From Piscinibacter aquaticus (GTDB lineage: Bacteria > Pseudomonadota > Gammaproteobacteria > Burkholderiales > Burkholderiaceae_C), in NCBI GenBank assembly GCA_007994965.1, contig VOPW01000001.1, forward strand, positions 3,162,001 through 3,226,000: a stretch of DNA of 64,000 nucleotides, written 5' to 3'. The position numbers and the translations under genes are program-made. The notes under the pieces are model-generated. The model was given only the letters and a program-made list of their open reading frames with translations. It had not been told where the DNA came from and ran no database searches. Of this stretch, positions 1-35,735 are shown piece after piece. The number at the start of each line of letters is the position of its first letter. The first letter of the stretch is position 1.

Positions 1-1874
1 CGGTGACGATGGTGGGTGCCACGGCGACCGGTGTGCCGGCGGTGACGTCGAGCGTGGCCTCGCCGCTGGTTGCCGAGCCCGCTCCGTTGCTGACCACCAC
101 GCTGTAGCGCCCGGCCTGCGCATTCGTTACCGCGGCCGGGCGCAGCACCGGTGCGTTGGCGCCGGTGATGGTGTTGCCGTTGAAGCGCCACTGGTAGCTC
201 AGCGCCTCGGTGCCGCGGGCGGCCACGGCGAACACCGCGTCACCGCCGGCAGCCACCGAGAGGGTGGCGGGCTGGGTCGTGATGGTGGGCGCGACGTCGG
301 TGTCGCTCACCGACACCGTGACCGGCGTGCTCGCTACCGAGCCGGCGGCATTGCTTGCCACCACGCGGATCTGCCGGCCGTTGTCGGCCGGGCCGAGTGC
401 GGCGGTGGTGTAGGTGCTGCCGGTGGCCCCGGCCACGTCGCTCCACGCACCTGCACTGTTGGCCGCACGGCTCTGCCATTGCAGCGTGGGGGCCGGCGCG
501 CCGATGACCGTGGCGCTGAAGCTGGCGGTCTGCCCCGTGCGCACCAGCACCGAGGTGGGCGGCACGCTGATCTCCGGCACGCCGCCCGACTGCAGCACCA
601 CCAGCTGCGTGGCGTTGCTGGTCACGCAGGGCGGGGGCGTGGCGTCAGCGGGCGTGAAGCAGGCGCGGGCGCGGAAGAGGGCGCCGTTGTCCGCACGCGA
701 AGGCACGAAGCCGTGTGTCATGCCGGTGTACAGCCAGCGCTCGACAGCCGGACCGAGCGGACTGGGGTCGCCCTCGAACTGGAACGAGCGGCCGACCGTG
801 CGCCAGGAGCCGCCGCCATCATCGCTGCGCTCCCAGTCCACCGTGGCGGTGCTCGTGGCCGAGGGGCATCGATGCTGGCGGCGAGGCCGTTGCGGACCCT
901 GGCGCCCCCGTCGAGCATCACCACCTTCACGCGGGTGGCGGTGTCGGCCACGGCCTGCGTCTGCGCGGGCAACGGCAGCAGCGTCATGGCTGGATAGCTG
1001 ACGTTGACCCAGGAGCCCGCATTGACCATGCGGCTGTCGATCCAGAACGTGCCGCCGGTTCTTGCGTCGCACTGCAGCGCCACCTTGACGTACACCTCCA
1101 TCACGCCGGCGCTGTACTGTGTGGCGGTGACGCGGGCGGTATAGGTGTTGGCACCGGCCGGCTGCACCATGCCCACGGAGGTGCCCGATTGCACGGCCAC
1201 CCGGCCGGTGCCGGCCGGCACTGCGTGGGCAGCTGCAGACCGGAGGTGTTGATGCTGAGGGTCAGATCGACGCTGCCGGCGGCTGGTTGCGAGCAGGCGC
1301 TTGGGCTGCAGCCGGTGACATTCACCGTCTCAAGCTTCCACGGCTGCGCCGTGAGGACCGGCTGCAGGTAGCTCACCGTCACCGGCAGGAAGTAGGAGAA
1401 GTCGATGACCTGGGTACTGAGCATGCCGCCGGCCTCGGTGCTGCCGATCAGTTGCCACGCGCCGTCGACCTCGGCCTTGGCCGGGCGCAACACCTGATTG
1501 GACTGCAGGGCGACCGACGGCGCGGGGATCTTCACCGTCACCGACTGCGCGAAGGCCGTTCCGTGCGGCGTGAGGGCATACACGGAGCCTGCGGCGGCCA
1601 ATCCTTCGGGCAGCGCCGGGGCGCCGCTGCCGTCCTGCGCGATGCGAATCGTGGTGTCGGTGGCCAGCGCCTCGGTCGGCACGTCAACGCGAGCGCCGCT
1701 GGCGTGCACCACGCTGCCGCCCGCCGCACCGATCGTGGCCGCGCCGCTGGCCGTGCCGGGATCGGTGGCACCACCACCTTCGCCTCCGCCGCAACCGGCC
1801 AGTGCCAGCACCATGGACAGCAGCAGCGCCAGTCCATGCCGCCATGGCCGCGAGGCTTCGTTCCTTGTACCCAT
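1..1874 (-). CDS. Surface lipoprotein with ZU5-like and Ig-like domains (3' end beyond window, frameshifted)
   Basis: The start is an ATG preceded by a strong GGAGGGAGAA ribosome binding site. The N-terminus is a lipoprotein signal with lipobox ALAGC (lipidated Cys at about residue 28) followed by glycines. Residues about 45-120 resemble a ZU5-type domain (GAATIGAAGGSV, then VDVPTEAL and VTVKIPAP). Downstream are Ig-like repeats with the pattern TQPATLSV...YQWRFNG...AGRYSVVVSN; two complete ones and the start of a third lie inside the window. Reading frame is lost near 1220 and near 870 with no loss of domain sequence, so these look like sequence errors. It is the paralogue of the lipoprotein at 4803-8519 and by analogy may end in RCC1 repeats outside the window. 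Probable role: outer-membrane-anchored surface or adhesion protein (inference). Confidence 0.7.
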
Positions 1875-1904
1875 CGCTTCTCTCCCTCCAGTTGGATCGC
1901 GCCG

Positions 1905-1938
1905 GTTGTAGAAGCCGGGGCGTTATGCCCTCGTTAGG
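1905..1938. repeat. Duplicated spacer upstream of lipoprotein gene, copy 1
   Basis: This 34-base segment matches 8615-8648 at 28 of 34 positions, counted by eye. In both places it lies just upstream of a ZU5/Ig lipoprotein gene and includes the stop codon region of the preceding secreted-protein gene. It marks the boundary of a duplicated gene pair. Confidence 0.6.
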
Positions 1939-2907
1939 GCATCGTGAAACGCCAGCGCACGGCCAGCGTGCCGGCCTCGTCGCGCTGGCCCTTCGTCTTC
2001 ACGCTGAACTCGCCCGCCGGCTCTTCGCGCCGGGCAGCAGCGCCACGCTGAAGGCGCCGAGCTCGCGCAGCGCACGGAAGTCGAGCGACTTGTTCGATTG
2101 CAGCCGCGCGTTGGTCTTGCCGCGGGTGTGTTGCGGCTCGTCGGTGACCACGGTCTCGGTGTAGGGCATGACGTTCATCGGCATCGGCAGACGCAGCCAC
2201 AGCGTCTGCTTCCCGGCATCGATCTCGGCCTGCGCGAACGCCGCCGAGCCGCGCGCGCCCTCCGGCAGCGCGCCTTCGCCGCGGCGCTCTTCACTGCGGT
2301 GGCAGAACTTGCCCGGGCCCTCGAGGCAGATCGGGTCGGCGTGCGTGATCTTCGCGTCCTCGCTGATGCGGTAGCTGCCCTGCTGGGCCACGCCCTTCCA
2401 CAGCTGATAGCGCGGCGCCCCAGGCTTCATCGCCGCTTCCGTCTCGCGCGCCACGCGCTGCGTTTCGCTGCGCGGTTTCGCGGCGGCGTTGGCGGCCATC
2501 TGCATCGCGAGCTTCTGCAGGCAGGCACGGTCTTCACCACACTTGGCGAACGCGGCCTGCATCTCGGCCATCGAGCCGCCCATCTGCTGCGCGATCGCCT
2601 CGCCTTGCGCCACGGCCCGGTCGGAGCGGGCCTGCTGGGCGGCATCGGGAAGCTGCACGGCCGACATCAGCGCCGGTTTGGTGGCTTCCAGCTCGGCGCG
2701 GATCGACGCAGTTCGCAGCACGCGCCACTCGCGCGAGTCGTACTTGTCGGCCGCGCGGCCTTCGGAGCGATAGCTGTATTCGACCGTCAGCACGGCCCGA
2801 GCGCCGGGCGGCGCGAAGCTCACCTGGGCCTGCGCCTCGGCCGCGATCACGGCACTGGGCAGCACCAGCAGGCGGGTCAGGGAACGGAAGTGCGTTGTCA
2901 TCGCCAT
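1934..2907 (-). CDS. Secreted protein of unknown function (frameshift near the C-terminus)
   Basis: I do not recognise the family. A signal peptide of about 27 residues ending in AEAQAQ precedes a periplasmic or secreted domain of about 290 residues. The middle is Ala/Gln/Met-rich and probably helical (residues about 75-165), with a Cys pair in KCGEDRACLQ and a second cysteine pair in the DPICLEGPGKFC segment. The frame breaks near 2035, and the tail continues to a TAA at 1934-1936. The gene lies 60 bases upstream of the ZU5/Ig lipoprotein and just downstream of another secreted protein, suggesting co-transcription. A decayed paralogue sits at 8644-8964 in the same position relative to the other lipoprotein, so the two products may work together (inference). 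Confidence 0.6.
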
Positions 2908-2926
2908 CTCCTCGGAAGGGAAGTCG

Positions 2927-4288
2927 TCAATTGCTGCCAGCCTCGCAGCTCGGGATCGGCGTGAGCGTCAGCTTCTCGTTGATCGGCCCGGAAAAGGTCC
3001 CGACCGGCGACTGGATCGAACCGCTGCCGGTGATGTGGATGGCCACCGGCTCGCCGCCCTCGGCGATCACGCTGTAGCGGCCCTGGCCCGTGCCGCGCGT
3101 GCCGCCGACGTTGGCCGCGACGTAGCTGAACGTGCCGCCGTCGGCGCCGGAGGGCGTGAACTGCCACTGGCCGGCCACCTCGGGGGCGATGGCGGTGAAG
3201 GGGCTGTCGAGCGAGCCGCACACCACGCCCTTGATCGTGGCCTCGTCGAGCCGGCCTTCGATGCGCCAGCCCGTGCCCGCGATGGACAACCTGAGCAGTT
3301 CCTCGGCCTTGCCGCGGCGCGAGGTGGCGACGAGGCGGATCTCCATCTCGGCGCGCTGGCTGTCCGGCGCCACGTGGGTGATCGTGCCGGGCGCCGCGGG
3401 GATCAGCTCGGGCGTGATCGAGGTGCCGCCGCTGAGCGATGCGTTCACGCGGGCCGCCACCTCGCCGCCTTCCAGGCGGTGCAGCACCCGCACGGGAATC
3501 CTGCTGCTGGCTCGGGGCTTCACGCGACCGGGCGAGGCGGCGTCGATGCGGATGCAGGCGCCCGACTTCCAGCGCGCTTCGGCACCGTACAAGGCGCCCG
3601 CCGCGGTGACCAGCGCGGTGCGCACGCCGCTCTCGGCCAGGGCAGCGTCGGCGTCGCTGGCCTGCGAGGAGGCGCGCACCAGCCGGTGGTTGCGCATCTG
3701 GATCTTCGAGCTGTCCGGCCCGCTCTGGTGCCACTCGGTCGCCGTCTCGATGTAGACCTGCCGGCCGCCTGCGGTGGAACGTTCGCCCTGGCGCGTGCGG
3801 ATGTCGGCCTCGGCGACGTTGGCATCGTCGCCCACCGTGGCGCTGACGTGGGCCTCGATCTCGCGGCCATAGACGACGTTGCCGCCGCTGCCGGCACAGC
3901 CCTCCTGCGACAGGCGCAGCGTGAATTCGACCTTGCCGGCGGCGTCGGGGCACAGGCCGGCGGTGGTGAGCGCGACCTTGGAGTTGGCCGACAGCACCAT
4001 CGGAATGGTGCTGGTGGAGGTCAGCTCCGCGGTGAACCGGCCGTCGGCGCCCGCCGTGACACGCATGCTGGCGCTCTGGCCATCACCATCGCGCACGTCC
4101 ACATTGAATCCGCTCAGGTCGGTGCCCGCGGGCACCCTGCCGACGTTGCCGATGCCGCCCAGCAGCCTGACGGCGGCGTTGCCGACGATCAGGCCCACGA
4201 ACTCGTTGCCGGTCAGGCCCTGCGCGCGCGCCTCGGGCAACAGGGCGAACAGCCAGACGGCGAGCGGGCGTGAAGGCGTGGCGGCCAC
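2927..4288 (-). CDS. Hypothetical secreted protein
   Basis: An uninterrupted reading frame of 453 codons from a GTG. The N-terminal part contains a hydrophobic stretch followed by EARAQ, which could be a signal peptide, but the frame is open upstream and it may instead be the continuation of the lipoprotein-like sequence at 4290-4698. The body has beta-rich segments with regular Gly/Ser/Thr content, for example VRDGDGQSASMRVTAG and SGPINEKLTLTPIPSCEAG at the C-terminus, and six scattered cysteines. I recognise no catalytic motif. It is followed after 19 bases by the secreted protein at 1934-2907, consistent with one transcript of cell-envelope proteins. Confidence 0.5.
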   Translation of the reverse strand: MAATPSRPLAVWLFALLPEARAQGLTGNEFVGLIVGNAAVRLLGGIGNVGRVPAGTDLSGFNVDVRDGDGQSASMRVTAGADGRFTAELTSTSTIPMVLSANSKVALTTAGLCPDAAGKVEFTLRLSQEGCAGSGGNVVYGREIEAHVSATVGDDANVAEADIRTRQGERSTAGGRQVYIETATEWHQSGPDSSKIQMRNHRLVRASSQASDADAALAESGVRTALVTAAGALYGAEARWKSGACIRIDAASPGRVKPRASSRIPVRVLHRLEGGEVAARVNASLSGGTSITPELIPAAPGTITHVAPDSQRAEMEIRLVATSRRGKAEELLRLSIAGTGWRIEGRLDEATIKGVVCGSLDSPFTAIAPEVAGQWQFTPSGADGGTFSYVAANVGGTRGTGQGRYSVIAEGGEPVAIHITGSGSIQSPVGTFSGPINEKLTLTPIPSCEAGSN

Positions 4289-4289
4289 C

Positions 4290-4698
4290 GCAAACGTCGA
4301 GCTCGGCGGGGCGACGTGACGAGGGTCGGCAGATCAAGGGCACTGGTGCGCCGCGGCCGCTGCGCCTCGAGGCGTTCGCTCAGGCGCTCGGCAAATCGCC
4401 GCTCCAGCGTCGCCGGGGCGGCGCTGTTCGTCCGCCTCCAGTCGCGCGCGCTGCGCTGCCACCTGCGGCAGCTCGGCCGAGACCACCTGCCACACCGGCG
4501 CATTGAGCGCCGGCATCGGCGCCTTCGGATCCGGTCGCGCGGCGGCGGCGCGGCGCGACCAGCCGCCTCCAGACGCGCGTTCGCGGCAGCATCGCCGCCC
4601 GTCGCGCTTCCGGTGGATTCGCGGCCGCGTTCGCAACCCGCCGTCAGGCCGGCTGCGACCAGCACCAGAGCCACATGAAGGACGGATCGGTTCCTCAT
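4290..4698 (-). CDS. Lipoprotein-like N-terminus, frame-disrupted
   Basis: The start ATG overlaps the stop of the small upstream frame (ATGA). The first 22 residues form a lipoprotein signal ending in lipobox LTAGC. The following Arg/Ala-rich helical sequence jumps frame twice: ALNAPVWQVVSAELPQVAAQ in one frame, then PATLERRFAERLSERLEAQ in another. It could be an independent small lipoprotein or the true N-terminus of the 453-codon protein immediately downstream. With two or three indels in 400 bases I cannot decide. The RLEADEQR...LERRFAERL stretch suggests a short coiled coil. Confidence 0.4.
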
Positions 4699-4781
4699 CG
4701 TTCTGCGCTGGCCGCCGCGGGCGCCGGCCAGGCCAGCAGCGCACCGGCAGCCCCGGCACGGCCTGTCTTGAAAGACATCAT
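4695..4781 (-). CDS. Short signal-peptide-like reading frame (28 codons)
   Basis: An ATG at 4781 is preceded by GAAGGA at good spacing, just after the end of the RCC1 lipoprotein gene. The 28 encoded residues look like an export signal: MMSFKTGR, then a hydrophobic Ala/Leu stretch, then PAAASA as a possible cleavage site. The frame stops at a TGA overlapping the next ATG. It is either a leader peptide for translational coupling or the N-terminus of a protein whose frame was broken by an indel. The surrounding indel density makes the second option at least as likely. Confidence 0.3.
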   Translation of the reverse strand: MMSFKTGRAGAAGALLAWPAPAAASAER

Positions 4782-4802
4782 GGTCGGAGTCCTTCGCAGG
4801 GT

Positions 4803-7800
4803 TCACGGCACCCAGAACTCGGCGCCCAGCGTGGTGCTGGTGGGTACGAGCACGTTGACGGTGCCGCTGAAGGTGCCGTTGCCGACCCGGCCGGCGTTGT
4901 TCCAGCCCCAGCACTGCACGGTGCCGCTGGTGCGCAGCGCGCAGGTGTGGCGCTCCCCGGCGGCGGCCACCGCGGCGGATCGGCGCTGTTGAAGTAGGCA
5001 CCGACGCGGCCGGCGGCCACCGGCAGCAGCAGCTGCTCGCGCTCGCCGCCGTTGCCCATGAAGCCGTAGCCCCAGCAAACCATGTCGCTGCTGCGGATGA
5101 CGCAGGTGTGGGTGGCGCCGGCGGCGGAGGCTGAGGCCGCCGAAGATGTCGGCGGGCATGGCGTCGTCGCGCGAGATCGTGGTGCCATCGCCGAGCTGGC
5201 CCTGCTCGTTGTGGCCCCAGCACATCGGCTGGCCCGAGCTGCTCTCGAGCGCGCAGGTGTGGTAGCGGCCGGCGACCACGCGGCCCGTGGCCGTGAAGTC
5301 CATCCGCGAGCCGTCGGGCAGGCGTCGCATCACGCGCGTGGCCGTGTCGTGGACGCCGAAGGCGACGTCGGCGCCCCAGCACCCACCACCGCGCCGTCGG
5401 CCAGCTGTGCGCAGCTGTGGTTGACGCCGACCGCCACCGCCACCGCGTCGCGCAGCAGGCTGCCGTCGGCGCGCCGCACGGGGTTGGGCCCCTCGGGCGG
5501 GTTCAGGTCGCCACGCTTGCCGAAGGTGGTGTTGCCCCAGCAGAAGACCTGGCCCGCGTCGTCCACGTAGCAGCCATGGTCGGCGCCCAGGCCGACCGCT
5601 CGCACGCGGACGCCGGCGGCGGACTGCTGCACCGGCACCCGGTCGCCCATCGAGCCCCAGCACCACAGTGCGTCGCTGCTGTCGATGGCGCAGGTGTCCC
5701 AGTTGCCTGCCGCCACCGCCTTTACGGTGCCCAGAACGCTGACGCGTGTCGGCACATCGCGATAGACACCCCCGCCGTCGCCCAGCTCGCCGCCGGCTCG
5801 TTGCCCCAGCAGTACAGCGCGTCGCTGCGGTCGATGGCGCAGGTGTGGTTCAGTCCGGCGGCGATCTTGTCTTCGGGTGAAGCCACCGGGGCGGGCCGCA
5901 CGGTGAGCAGCGCTTGTTCGCTGAAGGCGATGCCCGCGCCGTTGTAGACCACCACGCCGTAGAGCGCCCCGTCGTCGGCCAGTGCCAGTGCGGGCGTGGT
6001 GTACTCGGCCGCCGTGGCGCCGACGATCGCCACGTGGTTGCGCGTCCACTGGTAGAGCAGCGCGCTGCCGCCGGCGGCGACGGCGAAGCGCACGCTGGCG
6101 CCTTCGGTGCCGGTGACGGCCTGGGGTTGCGCGGTGATGGCCGGTGCGCCCACCACGGTGAGCAAGGCCGGCGCGCTGGTCACCGATCCGGCCGATGTGC
6201 TGATGCGCACGCTGTAGCTGGCGGCGTCCTCGGCCTGCGCGTTGTCGATTTGCAGGAAGGCCTGCGTGGCGCCGGCGATCGCCGTGCCGTTCTTCAGCCA
6301 CTGGAAGGCGAGCGTGCGACCGCCGCCGCTGTAGCCGACGGCGAACACCGCGGTGTCGCCGGGCAGCACCACCAGGGGCGCGGGCTGCTGGGTGACGCTG
6401 GGGACGACGCGGTCGGCGTTGGCGGTGACCGAGCCCCAGATGCCCGTGCTCCTGACCGTGCCGGCGGCATTGCTCACCTCCACGCGGTAGATCGCGTTGT
6501 CGCCCAGCTGGACGGGGTTGAAGCTCAGCATCGGCGAGGTGGCGCCGGCAATCGGCGTGTAATCGTTCAGCGCGGTGAGCTCAGCTCGGTACCACTGGAA
6601 GCGCAGCGGCGCGGTGCCCGTCGTGGCCACGACCAGGGCCGACGACTGGCCCTCGGTCAGGTAGACGAAGGCGGGCTGCGCCAGGATGGTCGGGGCCTGC
6701 ACCGTCGGCGGCACCGGCGAGACGGTGAGCACGGCGGCGTCGCTTTCCACGCTCCCCGCGGCATTGCTACCACCACCACGCTGTAGCGGCCGGCCTGTGC
6801 GGCGGCTGCGCCCGTGAGCCGGAGCACCGGCGCGTTGGCCGCGGTGATCGGCTGGCCCTCGAAGCGCCACTGGTAGCTCAGCACGCCGGTGCCGCTGGCC
6901 GCCACCGCGAAGGCGGCGTCGCTGCCGGTGAGGATGGTGAGCGGCGCCGGCTGGGTGCCGATGACGGGCGGCTGCTCGTCGCTGTTGACCGTGAGCGTCA
7001 CCTCCTGGCTTTCGCTGCTGCCCAGCGGATTGGTGGCCACCAGCTTGAACTGCCGGCCGTTGTCGGCGAGCGTGGTGGCGGCGGTGGTGAGAGTGCCTGC
7101 GGCGGCGCCCGTCACCGGCTCCCAGGTGTCGACGGCACTGGCGCGGCTCATCCATTGCAGCGCCGGGCTGGGGAAGCCGCTTGCAACCGCGGTGAAGCTG
7201 GCCGTCTGGCCCACGCGCACGGCCATCGAGCGCGGCTGGGTGCCGAACCCGGGCAGCGTGGCCTGCTGCGGGGTGGCGAAATGCAGGCCGATGCTGCTGG
7301 CGGGATAGCTCGTGGTGTCGCAGACCAGCCGCGCCGGGATGATCAGCGTACCCGGTTGCACGGGCGGTTGCACCGTGAACGTCAGCACCTGCTCCAGGGC
7401 CTGCGTATACCGCCCCGTGAGGTCATTGGTGTAGAAGATGTAGGCCTGCGCGTAGGCGGCGCCGTCCGGCGCTGCAGCACCACGCGAGGCCTGCTGGCCG
7501 CCTGGCACGTTGGCGGCAGCAGGGCGCGGCTGGGCACTCTGACGACGGTGCGCACCGACTGCGCGCCGGTCAGGAAGACGCAGTTGCCGCCATTGCAGGT
7601 GGGCGTCTCCAGGGACGCACTGAAGCCGTACTCCGGCGCGCTGCCGCTCTTGGAAGGGAAAACCAGCGGCAGGCTCAGCATCTGGGTGTCGCTGGCCGGC
7701 GGTCCGTCGCAGCGCAGGCTGGCGGCGATGGCGGCCGCCGTGGCCAGGCGCACGCCGGTGACCGGTGCAGTCGCGGAGACCGCGTTCACGTTGAAGCGGA

Positions 7801-8519
7801 AGCGGTAGCGGGTCTGCCCGGCCGTCAGCGGCTGCACCAGGGGATCGACGGCGGTCACGGGCGGTCTGCCGGCGAGGACGTCTCCGCCGAACACGTCGAC
7901 CACCAGCTTGGGCGCCGTGCAGGCGAGCGGGAACAGGCCCTGGTTGGTGTCCAGATCCAGCACCACCTGGGTGCTGTCCTCGGTGACCGCGGTGCAGTCG
8001 CCGGTGCTGCAGCTCAGGCTGGCCAGCCTCACCGAGAACGGCGGCAGCCGCAGTTCCTGGATCGGGTAGCGTTCCACCACCGGCACGAAGTAGGAGAACT
8101 CCTGCACGCTCACGACCAGGTCGCGGTCGGTGATCTCGGGCGACAGCAGCTGCCAGCCGCCGCCGGGGCTGAGCTTTCGCGATGCGCAGCTGCTCGCCGG
8201 CCGCCAGCGCACGGGCGGGCAGCGGAGGCTCACGCGCACCGGCTCGGCAAAGCGGCGGCCGTGCGGCGAGGGTGAACACGTCACCCACGGCGCCCACATG
8301 GGCCGGCAGCGCGGGCATGTCGGTGGCGTCCTTGGCCATGCGGATGGTCACCGGCTCGGCCAGCGCACCCGGCGGCACCTGCACCGTCGCGCCGCCCGGG
8401 CCCATGACGCTGCCGCCCTCCGCGCCCAGCGTGGCGGCACCGCTGGCGCTGCCGGTGTCGACGGCGCTGCTGTCGCTGCCACCGCCGCAGGCAGCCAGCC
8501 ACAGGCTGGCGATCAGCAC
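4803..8519 (-). CDS. Large surface lipoprotein: ZU5-like, five Ig-like and seven RCC1-type repeats (several frameshifts)
   Basis: The N-terminus is a lipoprotein signal (LWLAAC followed by GGG). A GTG at 8519 is the first in-frame start, but the n-region is short, and an ATG at 8582 behind AGGGAA would fit if one base is missing between. Order: ZU5-like domain (GAATLGAEGGSV...VQVPPGAL); a region of about 300 residues with disulphide-type Cys pairs (SCSTGDC, CNGGNC); five Ig-like repeats with conserved QW and Y; then seven repeats of the type HTCAI-(x)n-YCWG that match RCC1 repeats and would close a seven-bladed propeller. The frame changes near 8240, 8150, 7470, 6770, 5790, 5385, 5135 and 4970. 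Predicted outer-membrane-anchored surface protein, paralogous to the gene at 1-1874. Its binding partner cannot be read from sequence. Confidence 0.7.
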
Positions 8520-35558: not shown

Positions 35559-35643
35559 GAAGTCGGGATGAACCGTGAAAACCCCGCGAGTCTCGCATTG
35601 CCGGCGAGCGGGCGCCCCACCCCCGCTGATAGAATTCGCGCCG

Positions 35644-35735
35644 TTCCGAGGAGCGTTGCAAGGCCTGCAGGCCCCAGGCTCGGAAACTTCTTCTGCAACG
35701 GCGCTCACCCGCACGGCTTCTCTCCGTGGGTGAGT
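35644..35735 (+). ncRNA. S-adenosylhomocysteine (SAH) riboswitch
   Basis: The element 5' of ahcY has the SAH riboswitch layout. TTCCGAG (35644-35650) pairs with CTCGGAA (35679-35685). The conserved GAGGAGCGTTGCAA (35649-35662) faces TGCAACGGCGCTCA (35694-35707). A final hairpin CTCACCC...GGGTGAG lies just before the ahcY leader. Known SAH riboswitches switch on SAH-recycling genes when SAH accumulates, which matches the downstream gene. Confidence 0.9.

Follow-up and report, generated by a model that had tools for sequence, protein, structure and literature searches.

The window analysed here, a stretch of 64,000 nucleotides from Piscinibacter aquaticus (assembly GCA_007994965.1, contig VOPW01000001.1, positions 3,162,001 to 3,226,000 of the forward strand), carries near its left edge a minus-strand gene, copy A, for a putative lipoprotein built of a ZU5 domain, five immunoglobulin-like (Ig-like) domains and a propeller of the RCC1 type. 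A first-pass annotation made from the letters alone had described this combination at 8519–4803, and comparison with sequence families confirms it; the accompanying interpretation, of a large adhesin or carbohydrate-binding surface protein, is as a whole partly supported. Copy A is split into about ten frame segments, that is, about nine frame changes in 3.7 kb, and is described here beside an intact orthologue of 1313 residues from Piscinibacter sp. (JAGOAS010000011.1; locus L034, same contig as G007:C21), in which Pfam finds the same modules. The parts of copy A are the following.

4803 to 8519, minus strand: the ZU5–Ig–RCC1 lipoprotein gene (copy A), from the sequence as read, Pfam and the orthologue in L034
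8487 to 8498, minus strand: lipobox LAAC, recognized by eye, with its Cys codon at 8489–8487
8072 to 8444, minus strand: ZU5 domain in about four frame segments, from a Pfam match to the first half, a profile match to the second, and the score and modelled fold of the orthologue
8093 to 8098, minus strand: F-S pair (EFSYF), at the break before the last ZU5 strand in the orthologue's model
7251 to 8071, minus strand: variable middle region with several Cys and no Pfam match
5893 to 7250, minus strand: five Ig-like domains, from Pfam Ig_3 matches in 2 + 3 stretches, with borders by reading
About 7250–6990, 6980–6712, 6696–6420, 6405–6149 and 6147–5893, minus strand: the individual Ig-like domains, as read from the sequence
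4806 to 5874, minus strand: seven RCC1 blades with a Cys pair each, from the sequence as read, Pfam and the match of the orthologue to UVR8

The stop codon of copy A lies at 4805–4803 on the minus strand, and translation probably starts a little upstream of the GTG at 8519. The lipobox Cys is followed by GGG, which bears out by motif the lipid anchor that the annotation had proposed; the Gly at position +2 is presumably compatible with the outer membrane. A loose lipobox pattern precedes the ZU5 domain in 44 of 44 open reading frames (ORFs) of the family, these calls being pattern matches and readings by eye rather than the output of a signal-peptide program. The five Ig-like repeats are likewise borne out, since Ig_3 and I-set both exceed their Pfam cut-offs and the Ig_3 stretches on separate frame pieces add up to five. 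RCC1_2 stretches number 1 + 3 + 2 + 1 = 7 over four frame pieces, three of them above the cut-off of 22; the fourth, a short piece that carries blade 6, reaches 18.4. The roughly 270 residues between the ZU5 domain and the first Ig-like domain matched no Pfam family in the scan of the frame pieces. No tandem DNA repeats were found by Tandem Repeats Finder, and a scan against NCBIfam gave only matches below cut-off.

The homology of the ZU5 domain with animal ZU5 domains is real, on the combined evidence of profiles and of a modelled fold. In copy A the first half of the domain scores 15.1 bits with Pfam (PF00791), below the cut-off of 21, but the second half, in another frame, matches A5, a profile built from 15 relatives, at E 2e-9. 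The orthologue scores 21.9 bits with PF00791, and relatives reach 37.5, although several core relatives fall under the cut-off. A single bacterial ZU5 query finds ankyrin-1 at E 6e-4 and ZO-1 at 0.0045, and the profile of 15, searched against the PDB, finds ankyrin-2 at 3e-13, ankyrin-1, ankyrin-3, ZO-1 at 2e-5 and UNC5B at 5e-5. Of the ten PDB chains listed up to E 10, nine belong to ankyrin, ZO-1 or UNC5B and one, at E 0.18, is unrelated.

A structure model of the ZU5 domain and middle part of the orthologue, made from an alignment of seven sequences, has ten-residue blocks in its ZU5 part that lie mostly at 68–88 on the predicted local distance difference test (pLDDT), with one loop at 43. 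This ZU5 model superimposes on ankyrin-1 ZU5 with Z 14.5 (2.3–2.5 Å, 129–133 residues), and on rat NLRP1 (7crw), ZO-1 and UNC5b with Z 10.3, 9.3 and 8.8. The ZU5 fold on which the annotation's reading depended is thus found in the orthologue's model. Modelling of the same part without an alignment gave a mean pLDDT of 35 and was unusable, and the fold given for the middle region (model residues about 157–370, at low confidence) matched mostly antibody chains with Z of about 5.9 or less and is uninformative.

Ankyrin, ZO-1 and UNC5B, with which the bacterial family shares ZU5 sequence and fold, are cytoskeletal, junction and receptor proteins of animals. The bacterial set is close enough to the animal domains for residue-by-residue comparison, so that the origin of animal ZU5 domains and of their self-cleavage becomes testable. 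The annotation had remarked that ZU5 and RCC1 domains are best known from eukaryotic proteins. This eukaryotic character is less strange than it might seem, because ZU5 was already reported in 2012 together with adhesion modules in surface proteins of bacteria (Zhang et al., PMC3482391).

A propeller fold of the C-terminal head is supported by sequence: beyond the seven RCC1_2 stretches of copy A, the match between the orthologue's RCC1 head and UVR8 has E 6e-31, which makes a chance assignment untenable, and the same head reaches 180.1 bits with WD40_RLD against a cut-off of 150. The proposal of seven RCC1 blades is therefore upheld. The annotation had also given each blade a Cys pair of the form HxC...CWG. 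The pair itself (C...CWG) is present in 7/7 blades, the second Cys of blade 4 being visible only across a frame change, whereas HxC is exact in six of the seven, with W in place of H in blade 2.

Among 100 blade matches at 21 loci, some of them RCC1 proteins outside the ZU5 family, both Cys are present in 40, neither in 59 and only one in 1. An earlier count (62 neither, 40 both, 1 one) had taken in three matches in L038, which are left out of the recount because the L038 repeats are not RCC1; the recount keeps a few off-register matches, one in L013 and one double in L016, all without Cys, and blades without the anchor letters of the search pattern escape it. Proteins are of one Cys kind or the other, L015 being the one true exception if the off-register match in L013 is set aside. 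Such a both-or-none pattern is what disulphides within blades predict, and it lends support to the disulphides that the annotation had suggested.

A similar arrangement is known in plants. According to PMC4617170, the ectodomain of CRINKLY4/ACR4 has seven extracellular RCC1-like repeats with C(X10)CWG pairs thought to form within-blade disulphides, and the pair is absent from BLIP-II and RCC1. The present family likewise has a Cys pair in each of seven repeats, but the spacing in the orthologue is X8–X10, with the exact X10 of CRINKLY4 in one blade only, and a lipid anchor and Ig stalk take the place of the plant architecture; Pfam scans of the window pieces and the orthologue found neither a kinase nor a TNFR-like domain of the CRINKLY4 kind. 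The family shares RCC1 blades with the propellers of UVR8, RCC1 and HERC2, although no Cys pair is seen in the UVR8 blades aligned to the orthologue.

The head is not a constant feature of the family. Pfam assigns RCC1 heads to L034, the first gene of L031, L076, L079, both genes of L080, L081 and L085 (with weaker RCC1-type matches in L078 and L083), lactonase-type heads to L036, L037 and L090, NHL heads to L077, L087 and L091, and BNR/Vps10-type heads to L084, L086, L088 and L092. L038 carries repeats without a Pfam name, L082 is cut off by the end of its contig and no head is recognized in L093; for L029 B, L030, L035 and the second gene of L031 the head was assigned from an RCC1_2 search or from reading the sequence rather than from a full Pfam scan. 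The scaffold of the Rhizobacter protein L036 is 63% identical to that of L034 over 924 columns, yet its lactonase-type head has no match to the RCC1 head (E 0.91), and L037 (59% over 913 columns) also has a lactonase-type head with no hit to the RCC1 head. In contrast, the more distant scaffolds of L039 (53% over 507 columns) and of the tandem paralogue B (45% over 979 columns) keep RCC1 heads that are 36% and 33% identical to that of L034. Because closer scaffolds carry unrelated heads while more distant ones keep RCC1, heads have been replaced on an older scaffold, and on sequence comparison they are exchanged between relatives on a scaffold that is nearly constant. Whole β-propellers are thus swapped on a fixed lipid-anchored scaffold in envelope proteins of Burkholderiales, much as other systems swap the tips of toxins or adhesins.

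A gene of about 1100 codons for a BTAD-AAA regulator stays with the scaffold whatever the head. In a profile search it was found in the DNA around 19/27 PHG-type loci and 3/12 more distant ones, the locus groups having been chosen by the authors among the loci fetched. The profile was built from hits at the same loci, seeded by one sequence of the source genome, so that the breadth of its matches is partly circular; BTAD counts per genome provide an independent control. Since eight genomes of the genus hold only 1–8 BTAD matches each, adjacency by chance should be rare. Six regulators were scanned, and BTAD exceeds its cut-off in all six, AAA in five (26.9 against 27 in the sixth) and TPR in one. 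Many of the regulator genes lie downstream of the lipoprotein gene in the same orientation, either immediately next to it or 1–2.6 kb further along, and a few lie ahead of it or run opposite; counting diverged members, only 12 of 38 ORFs have a regulator on their own strand no more than 600 bases downstream. No match to the regulator was obtained inside the window at E 1e-10; that of the present cassette lies just past the left edge, after paralogue B (C1:3159514).

It is probable that copy A belongs to a family of exported modular lipoproteins with an exchangeable propeller head that would bind a variable ligand outside the cytoplasm and a BTAD-AAA regulator, often encoded nearby, that would control its expression. 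The lipid anchor and ZU5 domain would form the base and the Ig-like domains a stalk, with the C-terminal β-propeller (RCC1, lactonase-type, NHL or BNR/Vps10) as a head swapped among relatives. Because heads are exchanged on a nearly constant scaffold, the head would most likely bind a variable ligand, be it a glycan, a matrix or a partner surface, ligand binding being what one would naturally expect of such a module; the regulator encoded nearby most likely controls expression of the lipoprotein. The arrangement is suggestive of an adaptable binding device on the envelope, and a position at the cell surface is what we infer for it. Absent from the first-pass annotation are the tandem paralogue, the exchange of heads, the linked BTAD-AAA gene and the F-S pair that stands where ZU5 ends.

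Several points weigh against this interpretation. A periplasmic orientation of the protein is conceivable. Adhesion is only one use of RCC1, lactonase and NHL propellers, which may also act as enzymes or as hubs for interactions. The regulator gene is missing in 8/27 PHG-type loci; four of these cover less than 4 kb of DNA, and the other four cover 9.9–19.5 kb (G004, G301 C7 and G205, which are clear misses, and G295 C412). The blades of one protein are not independent of one another, and the p-value of the test made on the first Cys count is consequently far too strong.

The same linkage might be explained by a sensor in the periplasm or outer membrane, rather than an adhesin, that relays its state to the co-encoded regulator. 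The association of lipoprotein and regulator at 19 of the 27 loci speaks for such a sensor, and the BTAD and AAA domains may recall signal-transducing ATPases. Adjacency alone, however, also fits simple control of expression, and a connection through the inner membrane is not known, neither a transmembrane prediction nor a search for a membrane partner having been made. We regard a sensor as unlikely.

The F-S pair near the end of the ZU5 domain raises the further possibility of autocleavage between F and S, like that of NLRP1 and CARD8, which would leave the Ig-propeller part held non-covalently on the lipid-anchored base, from which it might be shed. F-S or L-S occurs at this place in all 28 PHG-type proteins (F-S in 23), and F/L-[ST] in 8 of 11 other members, seven of these having HFS or HFT. 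SFS is found in 14/39 family members and HFS in 6/39, and these are described in PMC3210808 as the motifs of CARD8/NLRP1 and of PIDD/Nup98, respectively. The counts cover 39 of 41 aligned domains, L098 and L107 being dropped at a gap column although the L107 locus reads HFS; copies A (EFS) and B (DFS) of the window and some further loci stand outside them. In the orthologue's model F142-S143 forms a two-residue break before the strand that ends ZU5. Model residue 152, at the end of the alignment, corresponds to residue 978 of rat NLRP1, which would place the pair near F968-S969, with the register taken from the range ends only. Rat NLRP1 cuts itself at F968-S969 with the help of an essential His, H942, 27 residues before the Ser (PMC8081665), and PMC3482391 contains a proposal from 2012 that ZU5 domains of bacterial surface proteins undergo autocleavage.

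Other observations speak against cleavage. A His 20–34 residues before the Ser (a distance in sequence, not in coordinates) is found in 2/28 PHG-type proteins and 0/11 others, so that 26 of the 28 lack a clear counterpart of H942. Pfam scans of window pieces and orthologue detected no UPA domain, the region after ZU5 being poorly modelled, and the CxH motif given in PMC3482391 is absent at the site. The F-S pair may also be purely structural, a structural plug. The family thus shares with the FIIND (ZU5-UPA) of NLRP1/CARD8 and PIDD the fold and the F-S before the last strand, but differs from it in the catalytic region and in the failure to find UPA. Self-cleavage is possible but, on balance, not likely.

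A His directly before F-S occurs in none of the 28 PHG-type proteins and in 7/11 of the others. In the diverged ZU5 lipoproteins L094, L095, L096, L097, L100, L101 and L108 the site reads HFS or HFT and the PHG histidine is missing; in L129 both His are absent. This reciprocity, PHG with x-F-S against P-x-G with H-F-S, may merely reflect two clades. It is also conceivable, though doubtful, that the site is a releasable joint like that of NLRP1 or PIDD, in which the exported protein cuts itself at F-S, only the last ZU5 strand keeps the Ig-propeller part in place, and the head comes free when it is pulled or binds; the catalytic His would then be replaced, perhaps by the PHG His in most members and by the His before F-S in the rest.

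The frame changes of copy A might be taken as the mark of a decayed pseudogene, but assembly error is the likeliest cause. The source genome (G000: 4.57 Mb, three contigs, 77% completeness) has a broken copy even of the essential rpoB gene, whose domain is spread over three matches in at least two frames (G000 C1:76803-78467), so that frame-based gene calls in this genome, the window included, are unreliable. Among five other genomes of the genus, rpoB lies in one frame in G001, G004 and G005 and in two stretches in G003, and was not found in G002. Frame breaks also split paralogue B and a third copy, located at C1:3.08 Mb; the family motifs are still present in the frame pieces, and an intact relative exists. 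Because rpoB is broken too and the Piscinibacter sp. gene is intact, assembly error is likelier than decay, and it is very improbable that copy A is a pseudogene despite its nine or so frame changes.

A delivered protein of the polymorphic-toxin type with its C-terminal module as effector is the least credible alternative: ZU5 and propellers do occur in polymorphic toxins (PMC3482391), and L102, a distant relative with a ZU5-like domain, has a NucA/NucB nuclease domain at its C-terminus (26.0 bits; cut-off 23.8), but most heads are propellers, no toxin domain or RHS repeat was found at E 0.001 in 22 relatives scanned with Pfam, and the scans of window pieces and orthologue likewise gave no toxin domain and no RHS or similar filament repeat. 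The L102 protein (438–3356 of that locus) is a ZU5-like lipoprotein with a weak Ig match.

The proteins described by Zhang et al. (PMC3482391) remain a close parallel. They resemble the present family in being large exported proteins with an N-terminal ZU5, adhesion modules and, as is noted there, propellers, and self-processing through the CxH site is proposed for them; most of those described are toxins that include SpvB, propeller and RHS parts. The present family differs in its lipid anchor, Ig stalk, exchanged propeller heads and linked BTAD-AAA gene, and in having F-S in place of CxH. Among the open-licence papers listed, none was seen to describe such a scaffold, its exchange of propellers and its BTAD-AAA regulator, which is no proof of absence.

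Copy A is followed in the window by three further features of the same cassette.

2927 to 4288, minus strand: conserved neighbour between copies A and B, aligned to the Piscinibacter gene at the same place
1999 to 2907, minus strand: second conserved neighbour, 62% identical over 290 residues to its Piscinibacter counterpart
1 to 1874, minus strand: 5′ part of paralogue B, with ZU5 at 21.9 bits, above cut-off, extending past the window

Only the C-terminal part of the first neighbour aligns with the Piscinibacter protein (66% identical over 112 residues), and the second has no Pfam match. Paralogue B ends in an RCC1 head beyond the window, before the regulator gene. The order copy A, neighbour, neighbour, copy B is common to the window and to Piscinibacter, in which the paralogue adjoining the orthologue has 1299 residues. 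Relatives of the 1999–2907 protein recur near other ZU5-propeller loci (L091, L038, L098). In the Piscinibacter genome G007 the interval between paralogue B and the regulator contains a lipoprotein-like frame (L029, about 2230–4957) that, as read from the sequence, has Ig-like and NHL-like repeats and no ZU5.

Two more ZU5-like lipoprotein loci of the source genome lie outside the window, at C1:3080813 and C3:22110; the former is split and stands near another BTAD-AAA regulator gene. ZU5 profiles matched 27/299 genomes of the family with profile A3, and 8/399 of the order and 6/398 of the phylum with profile A5, in overlapping samples that each include the window's own genome. Open frames of about 9,000–15,000 codons with a weak ZU5-like match were seen at L064, L066, L067, L068, L121, L122, L123 and L127. 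Elsewhere in the window, an S-adenosylhomocysteine (SAH) riboswitch lies at 35642–35713 on the plus strand, with 71.1 bits against a cut-off of 37.

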